Assembly: GCA_947567625.1 (NCBI GenBank)
Contig: CANONN010000025.1
Coordinates: 1 to 50,135, forward strand
From: an uncultured Roseburia sp.
GTDB taxonomy: Bacteria > Bacillota > Clostridia > Lachnospirales > Lachnospiraceae
Length of the DNA stretch: 50,135 bases
Direction: 5' to 3'
Made by a program: the position numbers and the translations under genes. The notes beneath the pieces were generated by a model, which searched no databases, was not told the origin of the DNA, and saw nothing but the letters and a program-made list of their open reading frames with translations. Positions 4,248 through 41,575 of this stretch are shown one piece after another (within the stretch, counting starts at the first letter, position 1; each line of letters starts with the position of its first letter).

Positions 4248-4393
4248 GTAACAGTTCAGCTCAGGACTTTGCACTCGCTGCAAAGTCCGTAAAAACGTGT
4301 ATATCTAGCCAAGCGGGAATTCGGCTCTTTGTCGAAGACAAACTTTAAATGAGCCGGATTCCGTAACTATGAAGCCGAGGGCTGAATAGTTAC
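4248..4393 (-). repeat. Modular palindromic repeat, copy 1 (fullest copy)
   Basis: Three hairpins in series: GGACTTTGC/GCAAAGTCC (4264-4288); a nested hairpin of GAATYCGGCTC with GAGCCGGATTC enclosing TTTGTC/GACAAA (4317-4361); and GTAACTAT/ATAGTTAC with inner AGCC/GGCT (4363-4393). The linker GGCTAGATAYACGCGTT is shared too. Parts recur at 24250-24299, 33915-34004 and 50081-50135. Read on the minus strand the order matches the copies at 33.9 and 50.1 kb. No ORF or transposase is associated, so it resembles a REP/BIME-like non-autonomous element. Confidence 0.85.
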
Positions 4394-10521: not shown

Positions 10522-11763
10522 TTAGTGTCCGCACGGCAGCGTGATCCGAAAACAGCTCCCCCGCCGTCTGCGTCGCGCCACGATATTCCCGCCCTGCTCC
10601 TCGAGCACCTTGCGCGCAAGATAGAGACCGACGCCGACGCCGTCCTTGGCCATCTTTTGCGCTCTCTCCCCGCGGTAAAATCGCTTGTAGATCGCGTTTA
10701 ACTCCTGCGGCTGTATGCCGATTCCCTCGTCCTCGATATCCACGTAGACATAATTTATTAATCTGCCCACCGTAATCGTAATCGTTGTATTCTCCCCGGA
10801 ATATTTGACGGCATTTTCGAGCACATTGGCAAACGCCTCCGCCGTCCACGCCGGGTCGCAAAAGATAGCGGCGTCAAACGCGCCCCCTTGCTCCCGATCG
10901 GCTCCCTGGCGGTCCGTATGGCCCTCATCCGTCAAGAGAATGGCGATCTGCTTTTCATTGGCCTTAAAAAACACTTTATTGACCGCCTCCGTCAAAACTT
11001 GCTTCAACTTTGTGTTCTCCGGTTTGATCTGAATCATGTTGTTCTCGAGGCGGGAGAGATTCACCAGCTCCTGCATCAGATTTTCAAAAGCCGTGATCTC
11101 CTGCCCCTCTTTTTCCAAAAACTCCTGATACTCCGCCTGGGTCAAGTCTCCCGCCACCAGCAGTTCATGACTAAGGCGCAGAGATGCCAGCGGCGTCTTT
11201 AACTGATGGGAAATATCGGTAATCAGACTCTTGGTATCATTCTCTTCCCGCCCCAGCCGCTGCCTCAAATCCGCGAAATAGTGACATGTCTGCCTGAATT
11301 TTCCCAGATATGCTTTCCACTCATCCGCAAAAGCTTCCTCTCCGTCAATCCGCCCGGGCAGATCGCCGCCCCGCAGCAACTGGTCTGACTGCTCCGCCAG
11401 TTCGTTCAAGAACTGCCGTGTTTCCTCCTCTTTGCGTTTCCTCTCATGCAGCAAAACGCCATACCCCACACCTGCTGCCGCAATGCCGCCAAAATACAGG
11501 CAGAGGGCAGCCATCCGTATTCCCTTCCTACTCCCGGCCTCATAATATGCACTATTTGCGTGCAATGGTTCTTTTAGCTGCGGATAAATGACCGAGAGCT
11601 CCTCCGTCTGCTGCCAGCGAAGCGCACCCTCGCGCTCTGTCAGAAATGCCGCCCCCAAGCAAACAAACAGGCCCCACAAAATGAGGCCCGCCATCACATA
11701 AAAATACATTTTCTTTTGCACGATTCCACCTACGAGCGTTTTCCCGTCACGCTTTCTGTCCAT
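10522..11763 (-). CDS. Sensor histidine kinase
   Basis: A 413-residue membrane kinase. Two transmembrane helices (about 19-41 and 83-104) enclose a short external loop of about 40 residues. The H-box DISHQLKTPL has the phosphorylated His at 186. The N-box ENAVKYS, G1 DEGIGI and G2 GVGVGLYLARK complete the catalytic domain. The short sensor loop recalls intramembrane-type kinases that work with ABC transporters, though this loop is longer than in classical BceS. The gene overlaps the response regulator gene by 34 nt, so the pair is translationally coupled. The ABC genes downstream are the probable targets. Confidence 0.95.
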   Translation of the reverse strand: MDRKRDGKTLVGGIVQKKMYFYVMAGLILWGLFVCLGAAFLTEREGALRWQQTEELSVIYPQLKEPLHANSAYYEAGSRKGIRMAALCLYFGGIAAAGVGYGVLLHERKRKEEETRQFLNELAEQSDQLLRGGDLPGRIDGEEAFADEWKAYLGKFRQTCHYFADLRQRLGREENDTKSLITDISHQLKTPLASLRLSHELLVAGDLTQAEYQEFLEKEGQEITAFENLMQELVNLSRLENNMIQIKPENTKLKQVLTEAVNKVFFKANEKQIAILLTDEGHTDRQGADREQGGAFDAAIFCDPAWTAEAFANVLENAVKYSGENTTITITVGRLINYVYVDIEDEGIGIQPQELNAIYKRFYRGERAQKMAKDGVGVGLYLARKVLEEQGGNIVARRRRRGSCFRITLPCGH

Positions 11764-26496: not shown

Positions 26497-27390
26497 TTAT
26501 TTTAAATCGCACTCCATCCCGGCTAATAACCGATATGCTCCCGGCCGCCTGTCGCGAAACAGGCCCCATTCCAGCCGTTTTGCGTCCAGGTCGCACAGAT
26601 CATATTCGTGTATCAGAATTTCTTCCTGATCTCTGGAGGCGCTCTTTATCAGCTCCCCCGTCGCGTCGGTGAGAAACGAGGAGCCATAAAATACCAGCGA
26701 AGAGCTCTGCCCGCCGTTTTCTTCGGAAGGTTTTACGCACTCCTCTCCAATCCGGTTCGCCGCAGCAACCGGCATCAGATTGCAGGCGGCATGTCCCTGC
26801 ATACAGCGTCTCCAATGAGGCATACTGTCGCACGCTAAGATCGGCTCGGAACCGATCGCAGTCGGGTACAGTAAGAGCTCGGCTCCCTTAAGCGCCATCG
26901 CGCGCGCCGTCTCCGGGAACCACTGATCCCAGCAGATTCCAACGCCGATTCTGGCATATCTCGTCTCAAACACACGAAATCCCGTATCCCCGGGCGTAAA
27001 ATAAAATTTTTCCTGGTAATAATGATCGTCGGGAATGTGCGTCTTACGGTAGACGCCAAGCACGCTCCCGTCCGCGTCGATGCAGGCAACGGAATTATAA
27101 AGCTGGTTGGCCTCCCGCTCATAAAAACTGATCGGCAGCACAATCCCTAACTCTTTTGCCAGTCTCACTCCCATCTGCACCGCGTCGTTTTCACTCACCG
27201 GCTTAGCAAAATGATAATAGTCATAACAGCGCTCCTGGCAAAAATACTGCCGCTCAAACAGTTCGGGCAGCAAGACAATCTCTGCCCCCTCCGCCGCCGC
27301 GAGCCGAATCTTTTGTTCGGCGTTCTCCAGGTTTTCTCTGATCTTTGTACTGCAGCGCATCTGAACGACTGCCAGCTTCACATTTCTCAT
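26497..27390 (-). CDS. aguB: N-carbamoylputrescine amidase
   Basis: A 297-residue nitrilase-family enzyme that hydrolyses N-carbamoylputrescine to putrescine, CO2 and ammonia. The Glu-Lys-Cys triad is visible: Glu43 in LLPELFERQYF, Lys116 in YRKTHIPDDHYYQEKFYF, Cys153 in GICWDQWFPE. The length suits AguB. ATG 27390 has GAGAGGAG at 7 nt; the frame extends upstream without support. It follows aguA after 29 nt and is the last gene of the polyamine operon, which fixes its substrate with good confidence. Confidence 0.95.
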   Translation of the reverse strand: MRNVKLAVVQMRCSTKIRENLENAEQKIRLAAAEGAEIVLLPELFERQYFCQERCYDYYHFAKPVSENDAVQMGVRLAKELGIVLPISFYEREANQLYNSVACIDADGSVLGVYRKTHIPDDHYYQEKFYFTPGDTGFRVFETRYARIGVGICWDQWFPETARAMALKGAELLLYPTAIGSEPILACDSMPHWRRCMQGHAACNLMPVAAANRIGEECVKPSEENGGQSSSLVFYGSSFLTDATGELIKSASRDQEEILIHEYDLCDLDAKRLEWGLFRDRRPGAYRLLAGMECDLK

Positions 27391-27419
27391 CCTCTTGCTC
27401 CTCTCTGTCAAACAATCAC

Positions 27420-28760
27420 TCACACAGGTATCTGCTGTGTGATGCAATGAATATTTCCGCCGCCTACCAGAATATCTCTGGCAGAAACGGGCACGACCCT
27501 GCGGCCGGGATTTAAGCGCTCCATGATTGCGACCGCCAGCCGGTCGCTCTCTGTGTTTTCTCCTCCAAAAACGGGCATCACCACCGCATTATTGGAAAAA
27601 TAGAAATTGACATAGGAAGCCGCCAGCCGCTCCCCCGCTTCGCGCATATCCTCTCCCGGCGCAAACGAATATCCGCCCAGATCTTTTTCCTGTACACAGA
27701 CCGGGTGTCTGGGAATCGGCAGCTTATGAACCGTGATCTTTCTTCCTCTGGCATCCGTCTCACGCTCCAGATAGGACAGGTCGGCCGCCGACATCGGATA
27801 TTGCGGGTCATCCGCATCGTCCGTCCACGCGAGAACCACTTCCGCCGGCCGTATGAACGCACACACATTATCCACATGCTCGTTGGTCTCATCCCCGTAT
27901 ATGCCAAAAGGCAACCACAATACTTTCCGGGCCCCAGTATGCTTCTTTAATCTTGATTCTATTTCTGCTTTTGTCAGTCCCGGATTCCTGCCTTTGCTGA
28001 GCAGGCAACGCTCTGTCACTAAGAGCGTGCCCTCGCCGTCGCTGTGTATCGAGCCGCCCTCTAATACAAACGGCGACGCGTCATAGATGTGGTAGCCGTA
28101 ATTTTTTGCAAAAAAAGACGCGAAAGCGTTATCTTTTTCCCATGATGCATATAATCCGTCATAATCGCCGCCCCACGCGTTAAACTCCCAGTTGACCGCG
28201 CAGACCTGCCGCTCCTGCTTTTTCTGCTCATCGACCGCGCCCAGTGACGCAGCCGCCCCCGGATTGCCCACGCCTCCTTTTTTTCTCTTTATCGTGAAAT
28301 CCTCTGGCTCAGCCGCCTCCAGATTTCCTGCGGCTCCTTTTTTTCTCTTTACCACGAAAGTCGGCGCTACGTCCCTGGCCCAGGCGTCGTCCGTCTCCGC
28401 CAGAAAAATCTCCACGTTCGCGCGCCAACGCTCTTTGTCTGATTTTTGATATACGGCGCACATCCCGCGCGCCAGAACGTAGCGCTCTGTACCGTGCGGC
28501 AGCCTCTCGGCGTGATCGTTTAGCAGCATAGCGACCGCCGAAGCGATACACTCCTTTCCCGCCGCCACATATACGCGCTCGCTCCCCGCGATCGCGGCTA
28601 TTACATTGGCAAAAGCTTCCCGCGCGGCCCGGGCCCCATACGGCCACGACCCCGGGCGCGCCGGCCAGATCAAGATACACCCGCTGTGCCGCTCAAACTC
28701 CGCTGGCATATAGTACCCGTCTGCTGCCGGCGTACTGCCTTTTATCACTCTCTCATCCAT
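27420..28760 (-). CDS. aguA: Agmatine deiminase with an internal repeated insertion
   Basis: AguA converts agmatine to N-carbamoylputrescine and ammonia. The guanidine-modifying fold is clear: YYMPAEFERHSGCILIWPARPGSWPYGA at the start, WARDVAPTFV, NWEFNAWGGDYDGLY, FVLEGGSIHSDGEGTLLVTERCLL and, at the end, GGGNIHCITQQIPV with the catalytic Cys. At 446 residues it exceeds the usual length of about 365-380, because about 50 residues with two tandem 20-residue repeats lie between APTFV and the NWEFNAWGG block. ATG 28760 has GGGAGG at 5 nt. An upstream in-frame ATG at 28784 belongs to a set of SD-ATG repeats in the leader. Confidence 0.95.
   Translation of the reverse strand: MDERVIKGSTPAADGYYMPAEFERHSGCILIWPARPGSWPYGARAAREAFANVIAAIAGSERVYVAAGKECIASAVAMLLNDHAERLPHGTERYVLARGMCAVYQKSDKERWRANVEIFLAETDDAWARDVAPTFVVKRKKGAAGNLEAAEPEDFTIKRKKGGVGNPGAAASLGAVDEQKKQERQVCAVNWEFNAWGGDYDGLYASWEKDNAFASFFAKNYGYHIYDASPFVLEGGSIHSDGEGTLLVTERCLLSKGRNPGLTKAEIESRLKKHTGARKVLWLPFGIYGDETNEHVDNVCAFIRPAEVVLAWTDDADDPQYPMSAADLSYLERETDARGRKITVHKLPIPRHPVCVQEKDLGGYSFAPGEDMREAGERLAASYVNFYFSNNAVVMPVFGGENTESDRLAVAIMERLNPGRRVVPVSARDILVGGGNIHCITQQIPV
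28239..28358 (-). repeat. Tandem 60-bp duplication inside aguA
   Basis: Two adjacent 60-bp units encode FVVKRKKGAAGNLEAAEPED and FTIKRKKGGVGNPGAAASLG. The DNA AAGAGAAAAAAAGGAG is identical in both. The units fall in a surface loop position relative to standard AguA and are basic, Gly/Ala-rich. Confidence 0.9.
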
Positions 28761-28770
28761 CGACGCCTCC

Positions 28771-28860
28771 CAAAAAACTGGCATGTTCGCTTCCTAAATA
28801 GCTGATATGTTTGTCTCTCTAAAAAACTGCCATGTTTGCCTCCAAAATGGTGCCATATGC
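28771..28860 (-). repeat. Imperfect 25-bp tandem repeats with SD-ATG micro-ORFs in the aguA leader
   Basis: Three units of about 25 bp (28771-28794, 28795-28819, 28820-28843) share the pattern GGAGGCAAACATGGCAGTTTTTTAG on the minus strand with changes. Unit three encodes M-A-V-F-stop behind a perfect GGAGG; unit two has ATA in place of ATG; unit one gives M-P-V-F and runs on into aguA in frame. A degenerate fourth unit precedes them. They occupy most of the 135-nt gap between the carboxynorspermidine decarboxylase and aguA. Confidence 0.6.
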
Positions 28861-28895: not shown

Positions 28896-30041
28896 TTACG
28901 ACAATCGCCCCTTGAAATCTTCGTATCCAAACTGCCGGATCATCTGCACCTCCCCGTTTTCATGCAGCAATGCGATCGAGGGCAGCGGTATCCCGTTAAA
29001 CGTGTTATTTTTCACCATAGAATAAATGGCCATATCCTCAAATACCAGCCGGTCCCCGACGTTAATTTTGCGCGCAAAGCTGTAGTCGCCGATCACATCC
29101 CCGGCCAGGCAGGTGAGTGAGGACAGGCGGTATGTGAAAGGCTTCTCCCCCGCCGGATAAGCGTCGCGCAGTGGAGGCCGATAGGGCATCTCAAGCACGT
29201 CCGGCATATGGCAGGCAGCCGAGGCGTCTAAAATTAAAATCTGCATTTCATTTTCTACAATATCCTCGACGGTCGTCACCAGATACCCGGCGCCAAGCGC
29301 GACGGCCTCGCCGGGCTCCAGATATACCTGCAAATCGTATGTCTGTTTGATATATCTTATCAGTTCTTTTAACTTTTCGATCTGGTAGCCATCACGGGTG
29401 ATATGATGTCCTCCGCCCATATTGAGCCATCTGACCTGACGCAAATAGGGAGCAAACTTTTCCTCCAGCGCATAAAATGTGGCCGCAAGATCACCCGCAT
29501 CCTGCTCACAGAGCGTGTGAAAGTGAATCCCCTCGATATCCTCCGGCAGCGTTTCGCCAAACTGACCGAAAAATTTTTCATATATCATGCCCAGGCGGGA
29601 ACCGGGCGCGCAGGGGTCATAAATCGCATGGCCCTCCTGTGTGGAGTATTCCGGGTTGACACGAATCCCGATGCTCACGTTTTCATGCCCCGTTACAAGC
29701 TCTCTGTGCTTTTGATACTGTGCGTAGGAGTTGAAAATGATGTGATCGCAGAGCTTCACCAGCTCTCTCATGTCCTCCTCTTTGTACGCGGGCGCAAACA
29801 CATGATTCTCTTTGCCCATCTCCTGTGCGCCGAGACGCGCTTCATAGAGGCCGCTGGCCGTCGTGCCGCTTAAGTATGCTCCGATCAACGGATACAGCGA
29901 ATACATAGAAAATGCCTTCTGCGCCAAAAGGATATGACAGCCGGCATCGCGCTCCAACTGTTGCAATATTTTTAAGTTGTCTTTTAATTTTTTCTCGTCC
30001 ACCACATAACACGGGGTGGGCAGTTCATTCCACTTTAACAT
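28896..30041 (-). CDS. nspC: Carboxynorspermidine/carboxyspermidine decarboxylase
   Basis: A fold-III PLP decarboxylase (about 381 residues) that removes CO2 from carboxynorspermidine or carboxyspermidine. LPTPCYVVDEKKLKDNLKIL opens the protein, the PLP lysine is in HILLAQKAFSMYSLYP, followed by GTTASGLYEARLG, HFHTLCEQD, WLNMGGGHHITRDGY, EPGEAVALGAGYLV and the C-terminal LTCLAGDVIGDYSF, all typical of this family. The start is taken at 30041 with AGAGG at 5 nt, since family members begin shortly before the LPTPCY block; ATG 30044 or 30077 are alternatives. A hairpin (30061-30098) would cover the upstream ATG. It lies between its dehydrogenase partner and aguA. Confidence 0.93.
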   Translation of the reverse strand: MLKWNELPTPCYVVDEKKLKDNLKILQQLERDAGCHILLAQKAFSMYSLYPLIGAYLSGTTASGLYEARLGAQEMGKENHVFAPAYKEEDMRELVKLCDHIIFNSYAQYQKHRELVTGHENVSIGIRVNPEYSTQEGHAIYDPCAPGSRLGMIYEKFFGQFGETLPEDIEGIHFHTLCEQDAGDLAATFYALEEKFAPYLRQVRWLNMGGGHHITRDGYQIEKLKELIRYIKQTYDLQVYLEPGEAVALGAGYLVTTVEDIVENEMQILILDASAACHMPDVLEMPYRPPLRDAYPAGEKPFTYRLSSLTCLAGDVIGDYSFARKINVGDRLVFEDMAIYSMVKNNTFNGIPLPSIALLHENGEVQMIRQFGYEDFKGRLS

Positions 30042-30060
30042 CATGCCCTCTTTTATAACA

Positions 30061-30098
30061 GGCGCAGGAATCTTCATCAAAGAGAAGTCTCCTGCGCC
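30061..30098 (-). promoter_or_regulatory. Hairpin at the nspC translation start region
   Basis: GGCGCAGGA and TCCTGCGCC form a perfect 9-bp stem around a 20-nt loop, with an inner CTTC/GAAG pairing. On the minus strand it holds AGGAG in the 5' arm and an in-frame ATG (30077) near the loop, so it would mask that upstream start. No U run follows, so it is not a normal terminator. Confidence 0.55.
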
Positions 30099-30140: not shown

Positions 30141-31400
30141 CTAATCTACCAGCTGTGGGTTCTCTTCGACAACCCACGGCAGTCCATACTGGTTTAACAT
30201 ATCCATAAACGGGTCTGGATCGAATTCTTCAATATTAAAGACCCCATCCTTATCCCACACCTTGTCGACAATCAGCGCCGCGCCGATCATGGCCGGCACC
30301 CCGGTCGTATAGGAAATGGCCTGTGAGCCGACCTCACGGTAACATTCCTGATGATCACAGACATTGTAGATATAGATGGTTTTCTCTTTTCCGTCCTTTT
30401 TACCGGTAAAAATACAGCCGATATTGGTCTTGCCGACCGTTCTAGGCCCCAGGGAAGCGGGGTCCGGCAGGAGCGCGCGCAAAAACTGAATCGGCACGAT
30501 CTCTCTTCCCTCATACGAAATCGGCGAAGTGGACAACATGCCCACGTTCTCCAAACACTTCATATGGGTCAGATAACTCTGTCCGAACGTCATAAAGAAA
30601 CGAATCCTCTTTACGCCGGGTATGTTTTTCGCCAGCGATTCGATCTCTTCATGGTGAAGCAGATACATGTCCTTCTCGCCGACTTCCGGGAAATCATAGA
30701 CTCTTTTTATCTCCATCGGCTCCGTTTCCACCCAATGGCCGTCCTCCCAGTAGGAGCCGTTGGCCGAAACCTCGCGAAGATTAATCTCCGGGTTAAAATT
30801 TGTCGCAAACGGGTAGCCGTGGTCGCCGCCGTTACAGTCTAAGATATCAATATACTCGATCTCATCAAAGTAATGTTTAAGCGCATATGCCGAGAATACG
30901 CTCGTGACGCCGGGGTCAAAGCCGCTGCCGCACAGAGCGGTAATCCCCGCCTGCCGAAAACGTTCCTGATAGGCCCACTGCCAGGAATAGTCGAAATACG
31001 CGGTAAATCCCGCCTCTTTGCAGCGTTTCTCGTAAATTTCCCTCCAGACAGGGTCATCGGTATTCTCCGGCTCATAATTTGCAGTGTCGATATAGTCCAC
31101 CTTGCACGCAAGACAGGCGTCCATGATCGTCAAATCCTGATAGGGGAGCGCGACATTGAGCACGGCATCCGGCTGATACGAATCGATCAGTTTGATCAGT
31201 TCGTCCACGTTGTCGGCATCGACCTGCGCCGTTGTGATCTGTGTGTCGGTCGTCCCCGCCAGTTTTTCCTTTAACGCGTCACATTTTGACTTTGTCCTGC
31301 TGGCAATGCAGATTTCCGAAAAAGTTTTGCTGTTCTGACAGCATTTGTGGATTGCCACGCCGGCAACCCCGCCGCAGCCGATGATTAGTAATCTTCCCAT
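30141..31400 (-). CDS. lys1-like: Carboxynorspermidine synthase (saccharopine dehydrogenase family)
   Basis: A 419-residue NAD(P)H enzyme that reductively condenses a diamine with L-aspartate semialdehyde to the carboxy-polyamine. The Rossmann motif IGCGGVAGVAIHKC (about 6-19), the SRTKSKCDALK block and the family sequences DYIDTANYEPENT, YFDYSWQWAYQERF and LCGSGFDPGVTSVFSAYA are those of the carboxynorspermidine dehydrogenase branch. Context (speA, decarboxylase, aguAB) supports use of putrescine. GAGAGGGGAAA precedes the ATG. It is separated from speE by 102 nt containing two short GC-rich hairpins. Saccharopine dehydrogenase proper is excluded by context. Confidence 0.92.
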   Translation of the reverse strand: MGRLLIIGCGGVAGVAIHKCCQNSKTFSEICIASRTKSKCDALKEKLAGTTDTQITTAQVDADNVDELIKLIDSYQPDAVLNVALPYQDLTIMDACLACKVDYIDTANYEPENTDDPVWREIYEKRCKEAGFTAYFDYSWQWAYQERFRQAGITALCGSGFDPGVTSVFSAYALKHYFDEIEYIDILDCNGGDHGYPFATNFNPEINLREVSANGSYWEDGHWVETEPMEIKRVYDFPEVGEKDMYLLHHEEIESLAKNIPGVKRIRFFMTFGQSYLTHMKCLENVGMLSTSPISYEGREIVPIQFLRALLPDPASLGPRTVGKTNIGCIFTGKKDGKEKTIYIYNVCDHQECYREVGSQAISYTTGVPAMIGAALIVDKVWDKDGVFNIEEFDPDPFMDMLNQYGLPWVVEENPQLVD

Positions 31401-31502: not shown

Positions 31503-32375
31503 CTAATGTTTGCCGCTCTTTCTGCCCTCTTCCTCCTCGAGCATGTCCTCCACATATTTTGGCAGCATGAATGCCCCTTTATGCAGGTTGGTCGTATAAT
31601 ACCAGGTCAAAATCCCCCGCTGTTTCCAGCGGTCGACGTCCAAATCCGCCAGCGGATGATATTTTCTGGATGCAAACCCAAACAGCCAGTATCCCGAAGA
31701 GCAGGTGGGAATGTGGGCCTGATAGACGCGGCTGATCGGAAAGCTATGACTGGCTTTCCGATGCATAAACCTGCACGACTCCTCATCGCCGTCGTAAAAC
31801 GGGCTCCCGTGCTGGTATACCATAATGCCGTCCTCATTTAAGGCGCGGTAACAGTTTCCGTAAAATTCCTTGGTAAACAGCCCGGCCGTGTGCCCCAGCG
31901 GGTCGATGGCATCATTGATAATCAAATCGTACTGATCGTGCTTGTTCCGCAGATAGCGCAGGCCGTCCTCATAGAACACCCGCACCCGCTCATCCTCCAG
32001 GCCGCAGGCATTGTCGGGGAAAAACTCTTTGCAGACGTCCACAAACACATGGTCAGGCTCCACCACATCGATCTCCTCAATCTCTTCGTAATGGGCTAGC
32101 TCCCTGGCAACGCCGCCGTCGCCTCCTCCGATCACAAGCACTTTTTTTACATGTGGATGTACCGCCATCGGCACATGAACAATCATTTCATCATAGATAA
32201 ACTCGTCCGCCTCCGAAAATACGATACTGCCGTCAGAGCTTAAGAATCTGCCAAATTCCTTTGATTCAAATACGTCAATCCGCTGAAACTCCGTCTGCTC
32301 CCCGAACAGCTGCTTTTCCACTTTCACGGACACTTTCACATTTTCCGTGTGATAATCCGAAAACCATAATTCCAC
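31503..32375 (-). CDS. speE: Spermidine synthase-like aminopropyltransferase
   Basis: A 290-residue enzyme of the polyamine aminopropyltransferase family, which moves aminopropyl from decarboxylated S-adenosylmethionine to a diamine. The N-terminal beta domain WFSDYHTENVKVSVKVEKQLFGEQTEFQ, the nucleotide loop IGGGDGG (about 82-88) and catalytic Asp155 and Asp158 in NDAIDPLG are present. Two departures: the gate motif usually YHEM reads YDEM (61-64), and DSTDP reads DAIDP. No speD, the source of the co-substrate, is in the window. AGGAG lies 7 nt before the ATG, and the gene starts 29 nt after speA. Confidence 0.92.
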   Translation of the reverse strand: MELWFSDYHTENVKVSVKVEKQLFGEQTEFQRIDVFESKEFGRFLSSDGSIVFSEADEFIYDEMIVHVPMAVHPHVKKVLVIGGGDGGVARELAHYEEIEEIDVVEPDHVFVDVCKEFFPDNACGLEDERVRVFYEDGLRYLRNKHDQYDLIINDAIDPLGHTAGLFTKEFYGNCYRALNEDGIMVYQHGSPFYDGDEESCRFMHRKASHSFPISRVYQAHIPTCSSGYWLFGFASRKYHPLADLDVDRWKQRGILTWYYTTNLHKGAFMLPKYVEDMLEEEEGRKSGKH

Positions 32376-32404: not shown

Positions 32405-33874
32405 TTATTTCCAGACGCTCTTATCCTCGACGAGCACATTCAAGTACTCTACATTCAAATCCTCGGTGCCCTGCATCGAACACCCCTTTTCTTTTGCATA
32501 GTTAATATATTCGATGATTTCCTTTGTGATCATCTCACCCGGCGCCAAAATCGGGATACCCGGCGGATAGCACATCACAAATTCGCCGCAAACCCGCCCG
32601 GCCGTCTCCTGCAGCGGCAGCTTTTGCTTCTCAGAATAGAAGGCGGTCTGTGGAGAGACCAAAACGGTAGGATTGATATACTCGGTGTTCAACATTGCCG
32701 TCGGGTCCTTAGAATAGAGGCGCTTGATATCGGACAGCGCCCCCACCAGCCGTTCGATATCCTGTATCCGGTCGCCGATCGAGATGTATGCCAAAATATT
32801 GGCGATATCTCCAAGCTCGATCTGAATATCGTATTCATCCCGCAGCAGATCATACACCTCAATCCCTGCAAGACCGATATCCCTGGTATATACCGCAAGC
32901 TTTGTCACGTCAAAGTCGTAGACGCTGCCGCCGTTTATCATCTCTTTGCCGTAAGCGTAATAGCCGCCGATATCGTTGATTTCCTTTCTGGCGTATTCGG
33001 CCATCTGGCTCACACGCTTGAAAGATTCTTTTCCGCGCAGTACCAGATTGCGCCTGCTGATATCAAGGCTTGACATCAGCAGATAGGAGGCGCTCGTCGT
33101 CTGCGTCAGGTTGATGATCTGGCTCACATACTCCCAGTTGACATTTTTTCCGGTCAGCAGCAGAGAGCTCTGCGTCAGGCTCCCCCCCGACTTGTGCATG
33201 GAGACAGAGGCCATATCCGCCCCCGCATCCATCGCACACACCGGAAGCTGCTCTCCAAAATACAGATGTGTCCCGTGCGCCTCATCCACCAGCACCAGCA
33301 TATTGTGCTGATGTGCCAGTTTGACGATGGCGCGCAAATCCGAGCACACGCCATAGTAGGTTGGATTATTGACTAACACCGCCACCGCACCCGGATTCTC
33401 CACAATCGCCCGCTCGACCTCGGATATTTTCATGCCCAGCGATATGCCAAGCCTTGTATCGACTTCGGGGTTGACATACACCGGTACCGCGCCGCAGAGC
33501 ACCAGTGCGTTTATCACGCTTTTGTGCACATTGCGCGGCAAAATAATCTTAGAACCCACCCGGCAGACGGACAGCACCATGCTCTGAACGGCGGAGGTCG
33601 TTCCCCCGACCATAAAAAAGGCATGCTCCGCGCGAAATGCCTCTGCCGCCAAATCCTCCGCCTCCTTGATCACTGACACCGGATGGCAGAGATTGTCCAA
33701 AGGCTTCATAGAGTTGACATCTAAGCTGACGCACTTTTCCCCCAGCAGCTCCACAAGCTCCGGGTTTCCTCTCCCGCGCTTATGTCCCGGCACGTCAAAC
33801 GGTACCACACGCCGTCTTTTTAAATCTTCCAATGCCTCATACAGCGGGGCATGCATCTGTGGATTACGTTCCAT
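32405..33874 (-). CDS. speA: Arginine decarboxylase, aminotransferase-fold (Orn/Lys/Arg decarboxylase family)
   Basis: A 489-residue PLP enzyme resembling Bacillus SpeA. APLYEALEDLKRRRVVPFDVPGHKRG opens the protein, GGTTSAVQSM and VDEAHGTHLYFG follow, and the PLP lysine is Lys228 in SVSMHKSGGSLTQSS. The C-terminal PPGIPILAPGEMIT is also typical. The fold alone fits arginine, lysine or ornithine; arginine is favoured because aguA and aguB downstream consume agmatine. It is the first gene of the six-gene polyamine operon. AGAAAGG lies 16 nt before the ATG, inside a 16-nt element shared with lysA. Upstream on the same strand are a palindromic repeat and a structured RNA ending in a terminator. 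Confidence 0.94.
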   Translation of the reverse strand: MERNPQMHAPLYEALEDLKRRRVVPFDVPGHKRGRGNPELVELLGEKCVSLDVNSMKPLDNLCHPVSVIKEAEDLAAEAFRAEHAFFMVGGTTSAVQSMVLSVCRVGSKIILPRNVHKSVINALVLCGAVPVYVNPEVDTRLGISLGMKISEVERAIVENPGAVAVLVNNPTYYGVCSDLRAIVKLAHQHNMLVLVDEAHGTHLYFGEQLPVCAMDAGADMASVSMHKSGGSLTQSSLLLTGKNVNWEYVSQIINLTQTTSASYLLMSSLDISRRNLVLRGKESFKRVSQMAEYARKEINDIGGYYAYGKEMINGGSVYDFDVTKLAVYTRDIGLAGIEVYDLLRDEYDIQIELGDIANILAYISIGDRIQDIERLVGALSDIKRLYSKDPTAMLNTEYINPTVLVSPQTAFYSEKQKLPLQETAGRVCGEFVMCYPPGIPILAPGEMITKEIIEYINYAKEKGCSMQGTEDLNVEYLNVLVEDKSVWK

Positions 33875-33882
33875 CTATCTGA

Positions 33883-33898
33883 ATAACCATACCTTTCT
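33883..33898 (-). promoter_or_regulatory. 16-nt leader element shared by speA and lysA
   Basis: AGAAAGGTATGGTTAT occurs on the minus strand just before speA here and just before lysA at 24135-24150, in each case supplying the best ribosome binding site and close to a palindromic repeat copy. Meaning unknown. Confidence 0.5.
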
Positions 33899-33914
33899 TA
33901 GAAAACCGCAGTGC

Positions 33915-34004
33915 AAGCGGAATCCGGCTCATTTAAAGTTTGTCTTCGACAAAGAGCCGGATTCCCGCTTGGCTAGATACACGCGTTCTTACGGGAACTG
34001 TTAC
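33915..34004 (+). repeat. Modular palindromic repeat, copy 3
   Basis: The perfect 11-bp stem GAATCCGGCTC/GAGCCGGATTC (33920-33930 and 33954-33964), extended by AAGCG/CGCTT with one bulge, encloses TTTGTC/GACAAA. The linker GGCTAGATACACGCGTTCTTAC and the end GGAACTGTTAC match copy 1. The GTAACTAT hairpin and the GGACTTTGC hairpin are absent. It lies in the leader of speA and could fold in its transcript. Confidence 0.88.
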
Positions 34005-34034
34005 TGAAATATTATCTCTTACCGGCTTACAGCG

Positions 34035-34062
34035 AAAAAGGCAGGTGTCTGCAACACCTGCC
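34035..34062 (-). terminator. Intrinsic terminator ending the structured RNA
   Basis: GGCAGGTGT/ACACCTGCC (9 bp, 34040-34062) followed on the minus strand by TTTTT. It closes the transcript that starts near 34323 and lies 160 nt before the speA start codon. Confidence 0.9.
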
Positions 34063-34323
34063 CTATCTGTCAAATTATCATAGTCATACTTTATGTATCT
34101 TCCGTTACATGCTGCAAAAACTATTCTCAGCAAATATTTGCTATTACTACTCTTATTGACCGTTTCACAAGTGATCTTTATCAATACTTATAAAATTTGA
34201 GCTCTTAACTCCATCAATAACGCGGCGTATCACCGCAATCGGCAGCTGCCCCGCCTGTCCGTATGGGCTTAACCAATCGCTTGGTGGGCAAATATTTGCA
34301 TGAAAACAATTCCTATTCATGTA
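34035..34323 (-). ncRNA. Candidate structured RNA (about 290 nt) upstream of the polyamine operon
   Basis: A strong promoter and an intrinsic terminator bracket this segment, and no convincing gene lies inside. Two copies of GCAAATATTTGC (34288-34299 and 34130-34141) can pair as a 12-bp helix enclosing 146 nt. Inside are ACCAA-GCGA-UUGGU with a GNRA tetraloop (34272-34285), GCGGUG-AUA-CGCCGC (34222-34236), the palindrome GGCAGCUGCC (34241-34250) and CCAU/AUGG (34263-34266 with 34211-34214). A 51-codon frame (34165-34320) starts almost at the transcription start without a ribosome binding site and looks incidental. I cannot name the class; a raiA-like or 6S-like RNA or a cis-acting leader are possible. 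Confidence 0.65.
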
Positions 34324-34329
34324 ATTGGT

Positions 34330-34358
34330 AGTATAACATAGTGGAGACAGAATTGCAA
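34330..34358 (-). promoter_or_regulatory. Strong promoter of the structured RNA
   Basis: TTGCAA (34353-34358) and TATACT (34330-34335) are 17 nt apart on the minus strand, with TGT before the -10 box. Transcription should start near 34323, reading towards speA. Confidence 0.75.
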
Positions 34359-34433
34359 ACAATTTATTTTGTATGCCTGTCTTCCTGCATATGAAACATC
34401 CGGTGTAACGCAACACCCAATTTGTTCTTTCCC

Positions 34434-36497
34434 TTATCGCTCGAATTTTTCCAGCAATTCTTCTAACTGCTTGGCTAGCTCTCTGTTTTCGTCCGACTGC
34501 TCTTGTATCAGATTCGCAATATTAGAGATTACCTCTGTTTTTTGTACGATGGCGTCAATCGCCGTCCTGTTTTCATCGGTGATCACTTTCACATCTCCCA
34601 TGTTGTCGGAAATCTGCATCACAGACTGGTAAAGCTCTTTGACCTCGCGATCCGACACGTCGAGTTTTTCCTTGATAAAATCGACCTCCTGGCTGTATAG
34701 CGCAGCCTTCTTGACGAAATCCTCAAACTGTCTCACTACGTCCTTCTCGATAAACCCGATCACAGAATCGAAACAGGAATTTACCGTGACAATGCTTTCG
34801 TCGGCCTCTTTGCACAAGGTTTGAATAGCGGAGGCCGTATTTTTTGAGGTATCGGCAAGATTGGCGATCTCCCCGGCCACGACGGCAAATCCGCGTCCCG
34901 CCTCCCCGGCCCGCGCTGCCTCAATCGAAGCATTGAGCGACAAAAGATTGGTCTGCCCTGCAATATTTAATATTTCGGATGCCAGCTCATTGATTCTTGT
35001 CAGGCTCTTAAGGCTAAGCAGCGCTTCGCGCACAGAGCTTCTTGTGCGGTCTAACGTATCCTGGCCGTTCTTGTACGCATATTCCGCCTCCTGTCGCATG
35101 GACTGTGCGCTGACGATAATCTCCCCGCTCGCGTGAACCGAGGTGGAAATATTCTGCCGCACTTCCTCAACCGCTGAATTAATCTTGGAAATCTCCTCGT
35201 TTGCGTTCGAGACAATCGCGTTGGTATTCTCCATGGAGGCCGAAAACTCTTCGGTCGTCGCAATATTATCCGCCACACTGTCAGACAGCTCACGCGCAGA
35301 ATATAATAGCCCGTCCGCCTTTCCCTCCAGCTTGCCGCAGCAATCCTGCAATGTTCCCGTAATCCTGCGCAAAGACTGCACCAGACTGTTCGTAGCCTGT
35401 GTGATACTGCCAAGCTCATCCTTTCTGCCGGCAAACCGGTTGCTCTCCGCCTTTTCGGTGATATCCAGCCTCTCCAGTGCCACAATGCTGTCCTCGATAA
35501 TGCGCATCGGCTGCGTCATCTTGCGGATAATCAGGAATGATATCAAACTGAGCAGCAGCAAGGCGCCGATACAAAAAACAATCAGTACCACTTTTAAGCT
35601 GTTGGTCGAGGCAAAAATCTCCACTTCGTCGTTGTTGACGAAGAAAATCCAGCCAAAATCCGCCATATAATAGTAGGTCGCAATAAAGTCCTGGCTGCCC
35701 TCGCTGTACTGGATATATCCGGTCGTATCCTCCGTGCTGCCCGCGAGCCTTTCGCATACCGCCTGTATGTATTCTTCTTCCGCGACAGTCGCTACTTTCT
35801 CACTGTCCTCGGTAAAAATATATTGTCCGTCCCTGATATTTACCATACAGTAGGCGGCATGTTCCATTCCGTTGATCACAAGGCTGTCCAGAATCTGAAT
35901 CAAGCCGCTGGTAAAAACCCCGCCGCCCACCAGACCGATCGGGCTTCCCGTCTCGTCGTATACCGCCCGGTACAAAGACACAATCTGCTGTTTGCTCGCA
36001 GGCGATATGATAATCCCTGTATTATAGACGCCGTCAGCCGCCAGCATGGCATCCTGCAAGGCTTTGAGGGAATCCCCCTCCCGCGTGGTGATGCCGACCA
36101 CGGCGGCGTTGGTGTGAGCCAGCACATGCGTATTCCACTCACTGGTATACAGCCCCTCCAGATTGGACACATCAGCCGAAAACTTCTCCGTGTAGCTCTG
36201 CGCTTTCGCGGCAAGCTTTTCGTCCTCCGGGTTCTTTAACAGATCGGTAATCTCCCCCGCCCTGCTGTAGGCCGTCAGCGTATTCTCCGTCTCTTTTACA
36301 TAGTTTCTTACAATCTGGGCGCGCTCCTGCGTAATGGTCTCCATACTATTGATGGTGTTTTCCTTAGTGCCCTGTGTCGTCCTGCTGATTACAAAAGTGG
36401 ACAAAATGATCATAACAACAATCTGCATGACCAAAATGCATGCGATAATCTTCTGCCCCAGCGTGATCTGTACATTTCGTTTTGTCATTTTCCCCAC
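34434..36497 (-). CDS. Methyl-accepting chemotaxis protein
   Basis: A 687-residue chemoreceptor: transmembrane helix at about 17-39, an extracytoplasmic dCache-like sensor (about 45-300), second helix (about 303-325), HAMP region and a long cytoplasmic coiled coil with the signalling hairpin around [47 protein letters not shown], which contacts CheA/CheW. It should relay an outside ligand to the flagellar motor. GTG at 36497 has AGAGAGG at 6 nt; ATG three codons later is an alternative. It is a single-gene unit with its own promoter; no che or flagellar genes are in view. Confidence 0.95.
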
Positions 36498-41296: not shown

Positions 41297-41351
41297 ATCT
41301 CATCTCTTCTTCTCTGCTGCCGCAGTGCTGCCGCAGCTTCTGTAGAAATCC

Positions 41352-41546
41352 GATAGCGCCCCATCCAAAATCTCCAGCATATCTGCGCGCTGGCTGCAAT
41401 TGTGATGACAGTCATGAAGTTGTTCACCTCATGCCCAAGGAATATCCGCAACAGGCAGATATCCTTTCGGCACGCTTTCCTTTTCTCTCTCTTCCCCTGT
41501 GCCTGCCACATCCGAAAGTCTACTCATAAAGCGTGCAACCTCTATC
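41352..41546 (-). promoter_or_regulatory. Lysine riboswitch (L box) aptamer
   Basis: On the minus strand the conserved core is plain: GATAGAGGTTGC and ATGAGTA at the 5' side, GCGTGCCGAAAGGAT, the CTTGGGC...GACTGTCATC region, and TGGAG...GGGGCGCTATC at the 3' side, with GATAG/CTATC closing the basal helix. The order and spacing agree with the five-way-junction lysine aptamer known from Bacillus lysC. When lysine is bound the terminator downstream should form and switch off dapA and the genes behind it. Confidence 0.95.
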
Positions 41547-41575
41547 AAGCAATATGTATTATTTCTATATTTAAA

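Follow-up and report, generated by a model that had tools for sequence, protein, structure and literature searches.

A large conserved RNA upstream of polyamine genes in Firmicutes is a candidate riboswitch with a transcription-terminator platform

Introduction

What kind of RNA precedes the polyamine operon of an uncultured Roseburia sp., and does it act on that operon? Within the 50,135-nt stretch of contig CANONN010000025.1 (assembly GCA_947567625.1) analyzed here, henceforth the window, an original prediction made from the sequence alone described an unassigned structured RNA upstream of speA. It was taken to be either a stand-alone noncoding RNA or a leader acting in cis by attenuation, with a polyamine, arginine or agmatine as the possible ligand. 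Polyamine sensing by RNA has long been claimed, and a 2023 report describes it for rare SAM-I variants, with 13 representatives in the model (PMC10853860). As given there, this SAM-I-variant spermidine riboswitch (Salvail et al. 2023) is a terminator/antiterminator off-switch linked to ldcC, speE and speB (PMC10853860). Another study lists candidate RNA motifs before polyamine-related genes, namely the potE motif from Veillonella and the odc1 motif from alpha-proteobacteria (PMC8632094).

Results

Organization of the locus

The features of the locus are listed in Table 1. As had been predicted, the strand of speA carries the promoter, an RNA of about 288 nt with a strong fold and the terminator; the two copies of GCAAATATTTGC were found there as well. 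The start of speA (33874) lies 162 nt past position 34036 on the same strand, and the six genes downstream of the RNA follow in the order speA-speE-CANSDH-nspC-aguA-aguB. The 5' end of the RNA (34323) was placed from the position of the -10 box. The 288-nt RNA folds with -94.4 kcal/mol compared to -65.2 ± 4.3 kcal/mol for 200 dinucleotide shuffles, none of which was as good. Among homologues, 58 of 73 had an upstream promoter-like score of at least 9 of 12, compared to 24% of mononucleotide shuffles.

Table 1. Positions of the leader RNA, its parts and the downstream operon in the window.
Feature	Position	Strand	Evidence or remark
Sigma-70-type promoter TTGCAA-17-TATACT	34330..34358	-	Sequence; -35 box TTGCAA 34358-34353, 17-nt spacer, -10 box TATACT 34335-34330
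Leader RNA, ~288 nt, predicted start to terminator	34036..34323	-	Fold z -6.85
P0 5' strand AGGAATTGTT	34305..34314	-	Own-versus-swapped test in 53 homologues, window absent
Whole conserved element (model R1, 213 positions)	34117..34302	-	142.2 bits, E 2.2e-42
P1 5' strand GCAAATATTTGC	34288..34299	-	Last two bases shared with P2
RF02440 SpF59_sRNA (ldcC RNA) part: P2, P3, P4, CATACGGACAG, CTGCCGA	34239..34290	-	Covariance model
P3 variable hairpin	34272..34285	-	5/5 pairs with changes on both sides (A1)
P4 (2 bp) enclosing conserved CATACGGACAG loop	34253..34268	-	2/2 pairs with changes on both sides, 98.5% of cells paired
P5 hairpin	34222..34236	-	6/6 pairs with changes on both sides
P6 5' strand TTATTGA	34214..34220	-	99.1% of cells paired; 5/7 pairs invariant
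P7 hairpin	34197..34213	-	97.5% of cells paired, 2/5 pairs with changes on both sides; one mismatch in window copy
Switching strand CACTTGT (its ACTT also in P9)	34167..34173	-	Complementarity peak, swap test
P6 3' strand TCAATAA	34153..34159	-	As P6 5' strand
GAGTAG, P10 5' strand	34147..34152	-	Sequence; usual 3' partner ACTCT absent in window copy
P1 3' strand GCAAATATTTGC	34130..34141	-	Own-versus-swapped test
P0 3' strand AATAGTTTTT	34116..34125	-	As P0 5' strand
GCAGGTG in terminator 5' arm, complementary to switching strand	34055..34061	-	7 bp, -8.5 kcal/mol
Intrinsic terminator	34038..34064	-	12-bp stem, -18.8 kcal/mol, then U run
speA-type decarboxylase (arginine/lysine/ornithine), operon gene 1	32405..33874	-	NCBIfam LdcC-type matches, best E 4e-23, below curated cut-off
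speE, spermidine synthase	31503..32375	-	TIGR00417, 280 bits, over cut-off
Carboxynorspermidine synthase/dehydrogenase (CANSDH)	30141..31400	-	NF043000, 411 bits, below its cut-off of 800
nspC, carboxynorspermidine decarboxylase	28896..30080	-	TIGR01047, 468 bits, over cut-off
aguA, agmatine deiminase	27420..28784	-	TIGR03380, 408 bits, over cut-off
aguB, N-carbamoylputrescine amidase	26497..27447	-	TIGR03381, 428 bits, over cut-off

The 5' part of the RNA belongs to a family filed as a streptococcal small RNA

The region 33850-34450 was compared with Rfam at E values up to 5, and five matches were found. RF02440 matched 34290-34239, covering 52 nt with 61.2 bits against a gathering score of 37.2 (E 1.2e-8), and the four others were far below their gathering scores. 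The view that the RNA matches no class was thus not borne out, and "unassigned" no longer applies to this segment; it still applies to the remainder of the RNA, which lies outside the match. The predicted lack of a T-box, lysine riboswitch or SAM match held at this threshold. None of raiA, 6S, T-box and the lysine riboswitch was among the five matches; SAM families gave no match at E up to 5 in the same region and none at gathering in 16 loci, the comparison being against the Rfam SAM models. To our knowledge, Rfam holds no separate model for the spermidine-binding SAM-I variant. The raiA, 6S, T-box, lysine and SAM classes were rejected on these results.

RF02440 is a 54-nt model that Rfam types as an sRNA and files as streptococcal. 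It spans 54 of the 213 positions of our whole-element model, that is, the 5' part only, and lacks the switching strand and the 3' half described below. In an earlier catalogue, the pneumococcal F59 is an 82-nt RNA that lies between SP0915 and SP0916 and has the orientation of SP0916 (PMC3395615). A 2025 list gives srn235/F59/Spd_sr49, there named M7, as a 327-nt sRNA candidate at 869478-869804, and srn235 is not one of the two candidates dropped there as cis-regulators (PMC12323649). In one study, srn235 had a transposon-sequencing lung fitness of 0.05 (PMC3395615). A polar effect on the gene behind could explain this value. The Rfam name "ldcC RNA" suggests that the link to a gene was noticed by someone before. 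SP0916 is presumably a lysine/arginine decarboxylase. The open-access literature, searches for ldcC RNA, RF02440 and SpF59 included, gave no description of the RNA as a polyamine switch.

The conserved element extends well past the Rfam model

With the window's own genome included each time, RF02440 was found in 29 of 146 relatives, 18 of 398 genomes of the phylum and 41 of 391 genomes of the class, samples that overlap between the different searches. Among 14 named control genomes it occurred in one, Lactococcus lactis. An exact 20-nt core was found in 34 stretches of the genome collection, titled mostly as Lachnospiraceae and Roseburia, and an exact-pattern scan of viral contigs for the conserved core gave no match. 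In the homologue alignment, conservation reaches well beyond the Rfam model, through TTATTGATTGAG..CTCAAATTTTATAAGTTGGTTAC..TAACC, ACTTGTGAAACGGTCAATAAGAGTAGTAAAAG and CTATATAGACTCTG. By this alignment, the conserved RNA is about 200 nt long, and RF02440 covers only its 5' part.

Model R1 was made for the whole element, and the extension was searched without gene information. It gave a single match in the window's own genome and matches in 25 of the 398 phylum genomes, own included, of which 15 are places already found by RF02440. The nine other loci outside the window, new or weak, lie upstream of speA (four) or speD (five), and seven of the nine are in genomes with no RF02440 match in the 398-genome sample, as judged by genome handles. 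Elsewhere in the window, 10905-10943 (minus strand) shows a weak partial match to positions 19-58 of R1 (15.8 bits, E 0.0012), perhaps by chance.

An exact pattern for the 3' half was present in 17 of the 391 class genomes. Two of these were missed by RF02440, namely L153, before speA, and L159, before potA. L153 lacks the CATACGGACAG domain and retains P1 and P6 to P10; L138 and L140 are even shorter and also lack this domain. In some genomes, the 3' half of the RNA persists where the RF02440 part is absent. Because L153, L138 and L140 lack the CATACGGACAG domain, the 3' half looks like the essential part, and it is probably the functional core of the RNA. By eye, P6 of L138 and L140 seems to be swapped for another helix (ACCAA with TTGGT; ACCG with CGGT). 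Four Lachnospiraceae copies (L034, L040, L042 and L058) are strongly shortened, with the RF02440 part kept and most of the 3' half lost. One contig has two core copies (L031 and L061), one of them directly upstream of a speE-like ORF.

The element precedes polyamine genes

Core homologues were collected at 115 loci, which include the same places found by two routes and come to 76 after removal of near-identical and unusable ones. The first recognized gene on the same strand was a polyamine gene in all 109 loci with enough downstream sequence; the remaining six end early, with at most 348 nt downstream. Labels were assigned by tblastn to 96 of the 115, giving speA for 69, speD for 16, CANSDH for 10 and speE for one, where the label is the best-scoring match within 1200 nt and small unrecognized ORFs may intervene. 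Three speA-labelled loci have speD first, which makes the counts by first gene 66 for speA and 19 for speD. Of the 19 unlabelled loci, 13 precede an ATP-binding protein read as PotA. For the four of these 13 proteins that were tested, the NCBIfam names are those of spermidine/putrescine or polyamine transporter ATP-binding proteins; in L108, the gene next after the PotA-type gene looks like PotB.

Association with the genes of one pathway, a mark of riboswitches, was thus seen at every informative locus (109/109). With a polyamine gene first on the same strand throughout, the stand-alone noncoding RNA of the original prediction is not supported. Neither is its suggestion of raiA or 6S, given this context and the Rfam result: both are likewise large noncoding RNAs, and neither model matched here. 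One study describes raiA as frequently separated by hundreds of nucleotides from the following gene, which in some cases has the opposite orientation (PMC11477304).

Most of the fold is supported by covariation

Alignment A1 was made from 33 chosen full-length loci. For helices P2 to P10, 91.5% of cells were paired, compared to 85.1% in shuffles and 31-44% when the structure was slid, a control over which the structure is favored by having been read from the first sequence of the alignment. Changes on both sides were found at 23 pairs (12.8 in shuffles) and in 122 cells (39.6 ± 6.6 in shuffles), and none of 500 shuffles reached the observed value for any of the three measures. Covariation among the homologues supports most of the predicted helices and agrees with the conserved complex fold expected of a riboswitch; P10 and P8b are not settled by it. 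P9, which joins ACTT of the switching strand with AAGT (34189-34186 in the window), was paired in 97% of A1 cells. A1 aligns the P8b hairpin poorly, with pairing in 64% of cells for one of its parts and in 57% for the other. P10 (GAGT with ACTC) was paired in 98.5% of cells, with two of its four pairs invariant and none with changes on both sides. It was not accepted as a proven helix: 5-bp partners occur in 68 of 75 loci, yet also in 58% of shuffles. We propose that P10, which crosses P1, would form a pseudoknot. Two details of the original prediction did not survive the alignment. The GNRA loop is not conserved, as relatives carry UUCG and other loops at that hairpin, and what was taken for a GC hairpin probably consists of the P2 3' strand together with the conserved CTGCCGA.

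The closing helices P1 and P0 were examined in 53 of the 76 loci. Those dropped have no anchors, too little upstream sequence or a P1 3' segment shorter than 14 nt; the window is one of them, as are many reduced copies and many short ones of the potA type. For P1, strands paired with -10.3 kcal/mol with their own partner and with -7.3 kcal/mol when swapped (permutation p < 0.0002), and the excess over dinucleotide shuffles was -5.1 kcal/mol. The proposed 12-bp closing helix is therefore supported across the family, its strands fitting their own partners better than swapped or shuffled ones. P0 is an outer helix that joins the 5' leader to the strand following ACTCTG, with -17.5 kcal/mol for own and -12.6 kcal/mol for swapped partners and a shuffle excess of -4.5 kcal/mol. 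In the window, P1 amounts to -14.0 kcal/mol and P0, between AGGAATTGTT and AATAGTTTTT, to -5.6 kcal/mol.

A strand of the element is complementary to the terminator

Complementarity between the element and the region from the element to the gene was scanned in 14-nt windows, with a dinucleotide-shuffle control. The 76 non-redundant loci used here all have a gene start, an ACTTGTG strand that could be recognized and a downstream region of 50 nt or more, and none exceeds 92% position-by-position identity to a locus already kept. Only windows around ACTTGTG were strongly complementary downstream, with an excess of -4.2 kcal/mol (t -14.7) at the best offset, followed by neighboring offsets. In other windows, complementarity was below the shuffle level, with values of up to +0.7 kcal/mol (t 4.2), and weak negatives occurred near the 3' end; we read both as composition effects. 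The peak coincides with the strand that closes the variable hairpin P8b (the P8b 3' strand) and runs on as CACTTGTG. P8b varies in sequence, and the downstream partner varies along with it. When strands and downstream regions were swapped between loci, own pairs gave -18.7 kcal/mol compared to -15.0 kcal/mol for swapped pairs, and the best of 5000 permutations gave -16.0 kcal/mol; this test, like the complementarity scan, treats related loci as independent. The own strand ranked first for 14 of the 76 downstream regions and among the top five for 29, and the own downstream region ranked first for six of the 76 strands and among the top five for 22.

A terminator was detected in 63 of the 76 loci. 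The best partner overlapped its 5' arm in 61 of the 63, compared to 22 for a control strand taken from the same RNA. No terminator was found by the program in the other 13 loci, some of which are cut by the gene-start estimate. Since ACTT pairs with AAGT (P9) in the conserved fold, the two pairings would be mutually exclusive. An expression platform that excludes the aptamer fold, another mark of riboswitches, is therefore seen for the family, and it is weak in the window copy. The predicted anatomy is that of a transcription attenuator, in which a stabilized aptamer would free the terminator. In L087, no terminator is obvious ahead of the gene. By eye, L087 and its relative L094 have a stretch near the start codon that is complementary to the neighboring GTAAAACGGTC, which hints at translational control there; for L087, the duplex program picked a different, weaker partner.

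The window copy is atypical

The window copy retains the promoter, P0, P1, P3 to P6, P9, the switching strand and the terminator. It lacks the ACTCT stretch that most relatives have between P1 and P0. Its switch pairing, CACUUGU with GCAGGUG, has two G-U pairs among its 7 bp and is not the best duplex found for the locus, and the window and L044 are the two loci of 63 that fail the terminator-overlap test. The copy may be a reduced, weaker or decaying switch. A decayed riboswitch that terminates constitutively or without ligand control, which would be compatible with our main explanation, is a possibility to which we give a minor share for this copy alone. The missing ACTCT, the mismatch in P7, the short pairing with its two G-U pairs and the failed overlap test point to decay; the helices, promoter and terminator that are present and the unchanged conserved ACTTGTGAAACGGTCAATAAGAGTAGTAA point away from it.

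Discussion

Gene context, covariation and the antiterminator test together give good support to the cis-acting, attenuated leader that was one of the two options at the outset. The comparison of loci supports most of the predicted fold and the link to polyamine genes, as well as the terminator and the two pairings that exclude each other. We consider it likely that the RNA is a cis-acting off-switch riboswitch with an aptamer of about 200 nt (P1 to P10) and a transcription-terminator platform, whose ligand is most likely spermidine. In the window, it would control the speA-speE-CANSDH-nspC-aguA-aguB operon. With ligand, the P8b-3'/CACTTGTG strand would be held inside the aptamer, in P9 with AAGT and in the variable P8b hairpin, the terminator would form and transcription would stop. 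Without ligand, the same strand would pair with the 5' arm of the terminator, whose formation would be blocked, and the operon would be transcribed. We infer the binding of a small molecule, the identity of spermidine and the off direction. Spermidine is proposed as the common product of the associated synthesis genes and a substrate of the Pot importer. What speA, speD, speE, CANSDH and potA have in common is the polyamine product alone, and an off-switch for spermidine would fit best, although gene context by itself cannot tell spermidine from other polyamines. Of the ligands originally suggested, a polyamine is favored by gene context, while arginine and agmatine fit poorly with speD, CANSDH and potA.

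The terminator/antiterminator anatomy is silent on what triggers it, and the same attenuator might be bound by a protein, either a polyamine-responsive regulator or a ribosomal factor. We regard this as unlikely, since long stretches of the RNA are invariant and fall in part within loops and junctions, as in aptamers. A riboswitch might also respond to a substrate or precursor, such as arginine, lysine, ornithine, agmatine or SAM, instead of the polyamine product. SpeD uses SAM, and the window's speA and aguAB act on arginine and agmatine. Such a sensor would not be expected before all of the first genes, of which potA, CANSDH and speE share only the polyamine product or its import, and we hold it to be less likely still. 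The least probable reading, to which we give very little weight, is that of an independent small RNA which has a promoter and a terminator of its own and acts in trans, the way it is filed in Streptococcus. It is favored by the sRNA type in Rfam and by the pneumococcal listing of srn235/F59/Spd_sr49, which the 2025 list does not remove as a cis-regulator (PMC12323649). Against it stand the polyamine gene that follows on the same strand at all 109 informative loci and a complementarity that covaries with the terminator before the adjacent gene. We rejected a trans-acting role for the family on gene context, which also argues for a cis role of the RF02440 RNA rather than the sRNA type given in Rfam.

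Sequence comparison thus points to a genuine cis-regulatory RNA of polyamine genes that is both large and conserved and that most likely forms a separate riboswitch class. With some reserve, we lean towards the view that Firmicutes have a second class of spermidine riboswitch, one that is widespread and unrelated to the first. Its aptamer would be pseudoknotted with the 3' half as its core (P1, the ACTTGTGAAACGG strand, GAGTAGTAAAAG and CTATATAGACTC), the Rfam part would be a dispensable accessory, and F59/srn235 would be this riboswitch before a polyamine operon. The off-switch logic proposed here is the same as that given for the SAM-I-variant spermidine riboswitch (PMC10853860). The window RNA differs from that variant in that no SAM family matched it at E up to 5. 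The spread is also wider, with 76 non-redundant loci here compared to the 13 representatives in the model of the variant (PMC10853860). The potE and odc1 motifs differ in host groups and downstream genes, being set apart here by their published description (PMC8632094). If our proposal is right, polyamines would be under feedback control in many Firmicutes, and an sRNA catalogued in streptococci would have an explanation. The case would also illustrate how a large functional RNA can escape notice when its Rfam family is built from a short segment. The element sits before both synthesis and import genes, and its putative antiterminator can be read from the sequence.

Two other elements were observed in the window. 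A lysine riboswitch (RF00168, 104.1 bits) at 41346-41552 on the minus strand, likewise a large aptamer whose model does not match the RNA described here, lies directly upstream of an ORF (41239-40355, minus strand) that looks like dapA, as named by eye. Between the terminator and speA, outside the leader RNA, a strong hairpin at 33915-33970 (minus strand) belongs to a dispersed palindromic repeat of about 62 nt that looks like a REP- or MITE-like element. This repeat occurs also at 4302-4363 (plus strand) and has 45 matches in the genome including itself, 42 of them at 95-100% identity; on contigs C66, C20 and C97, copies lie about 140-170 nt apart.
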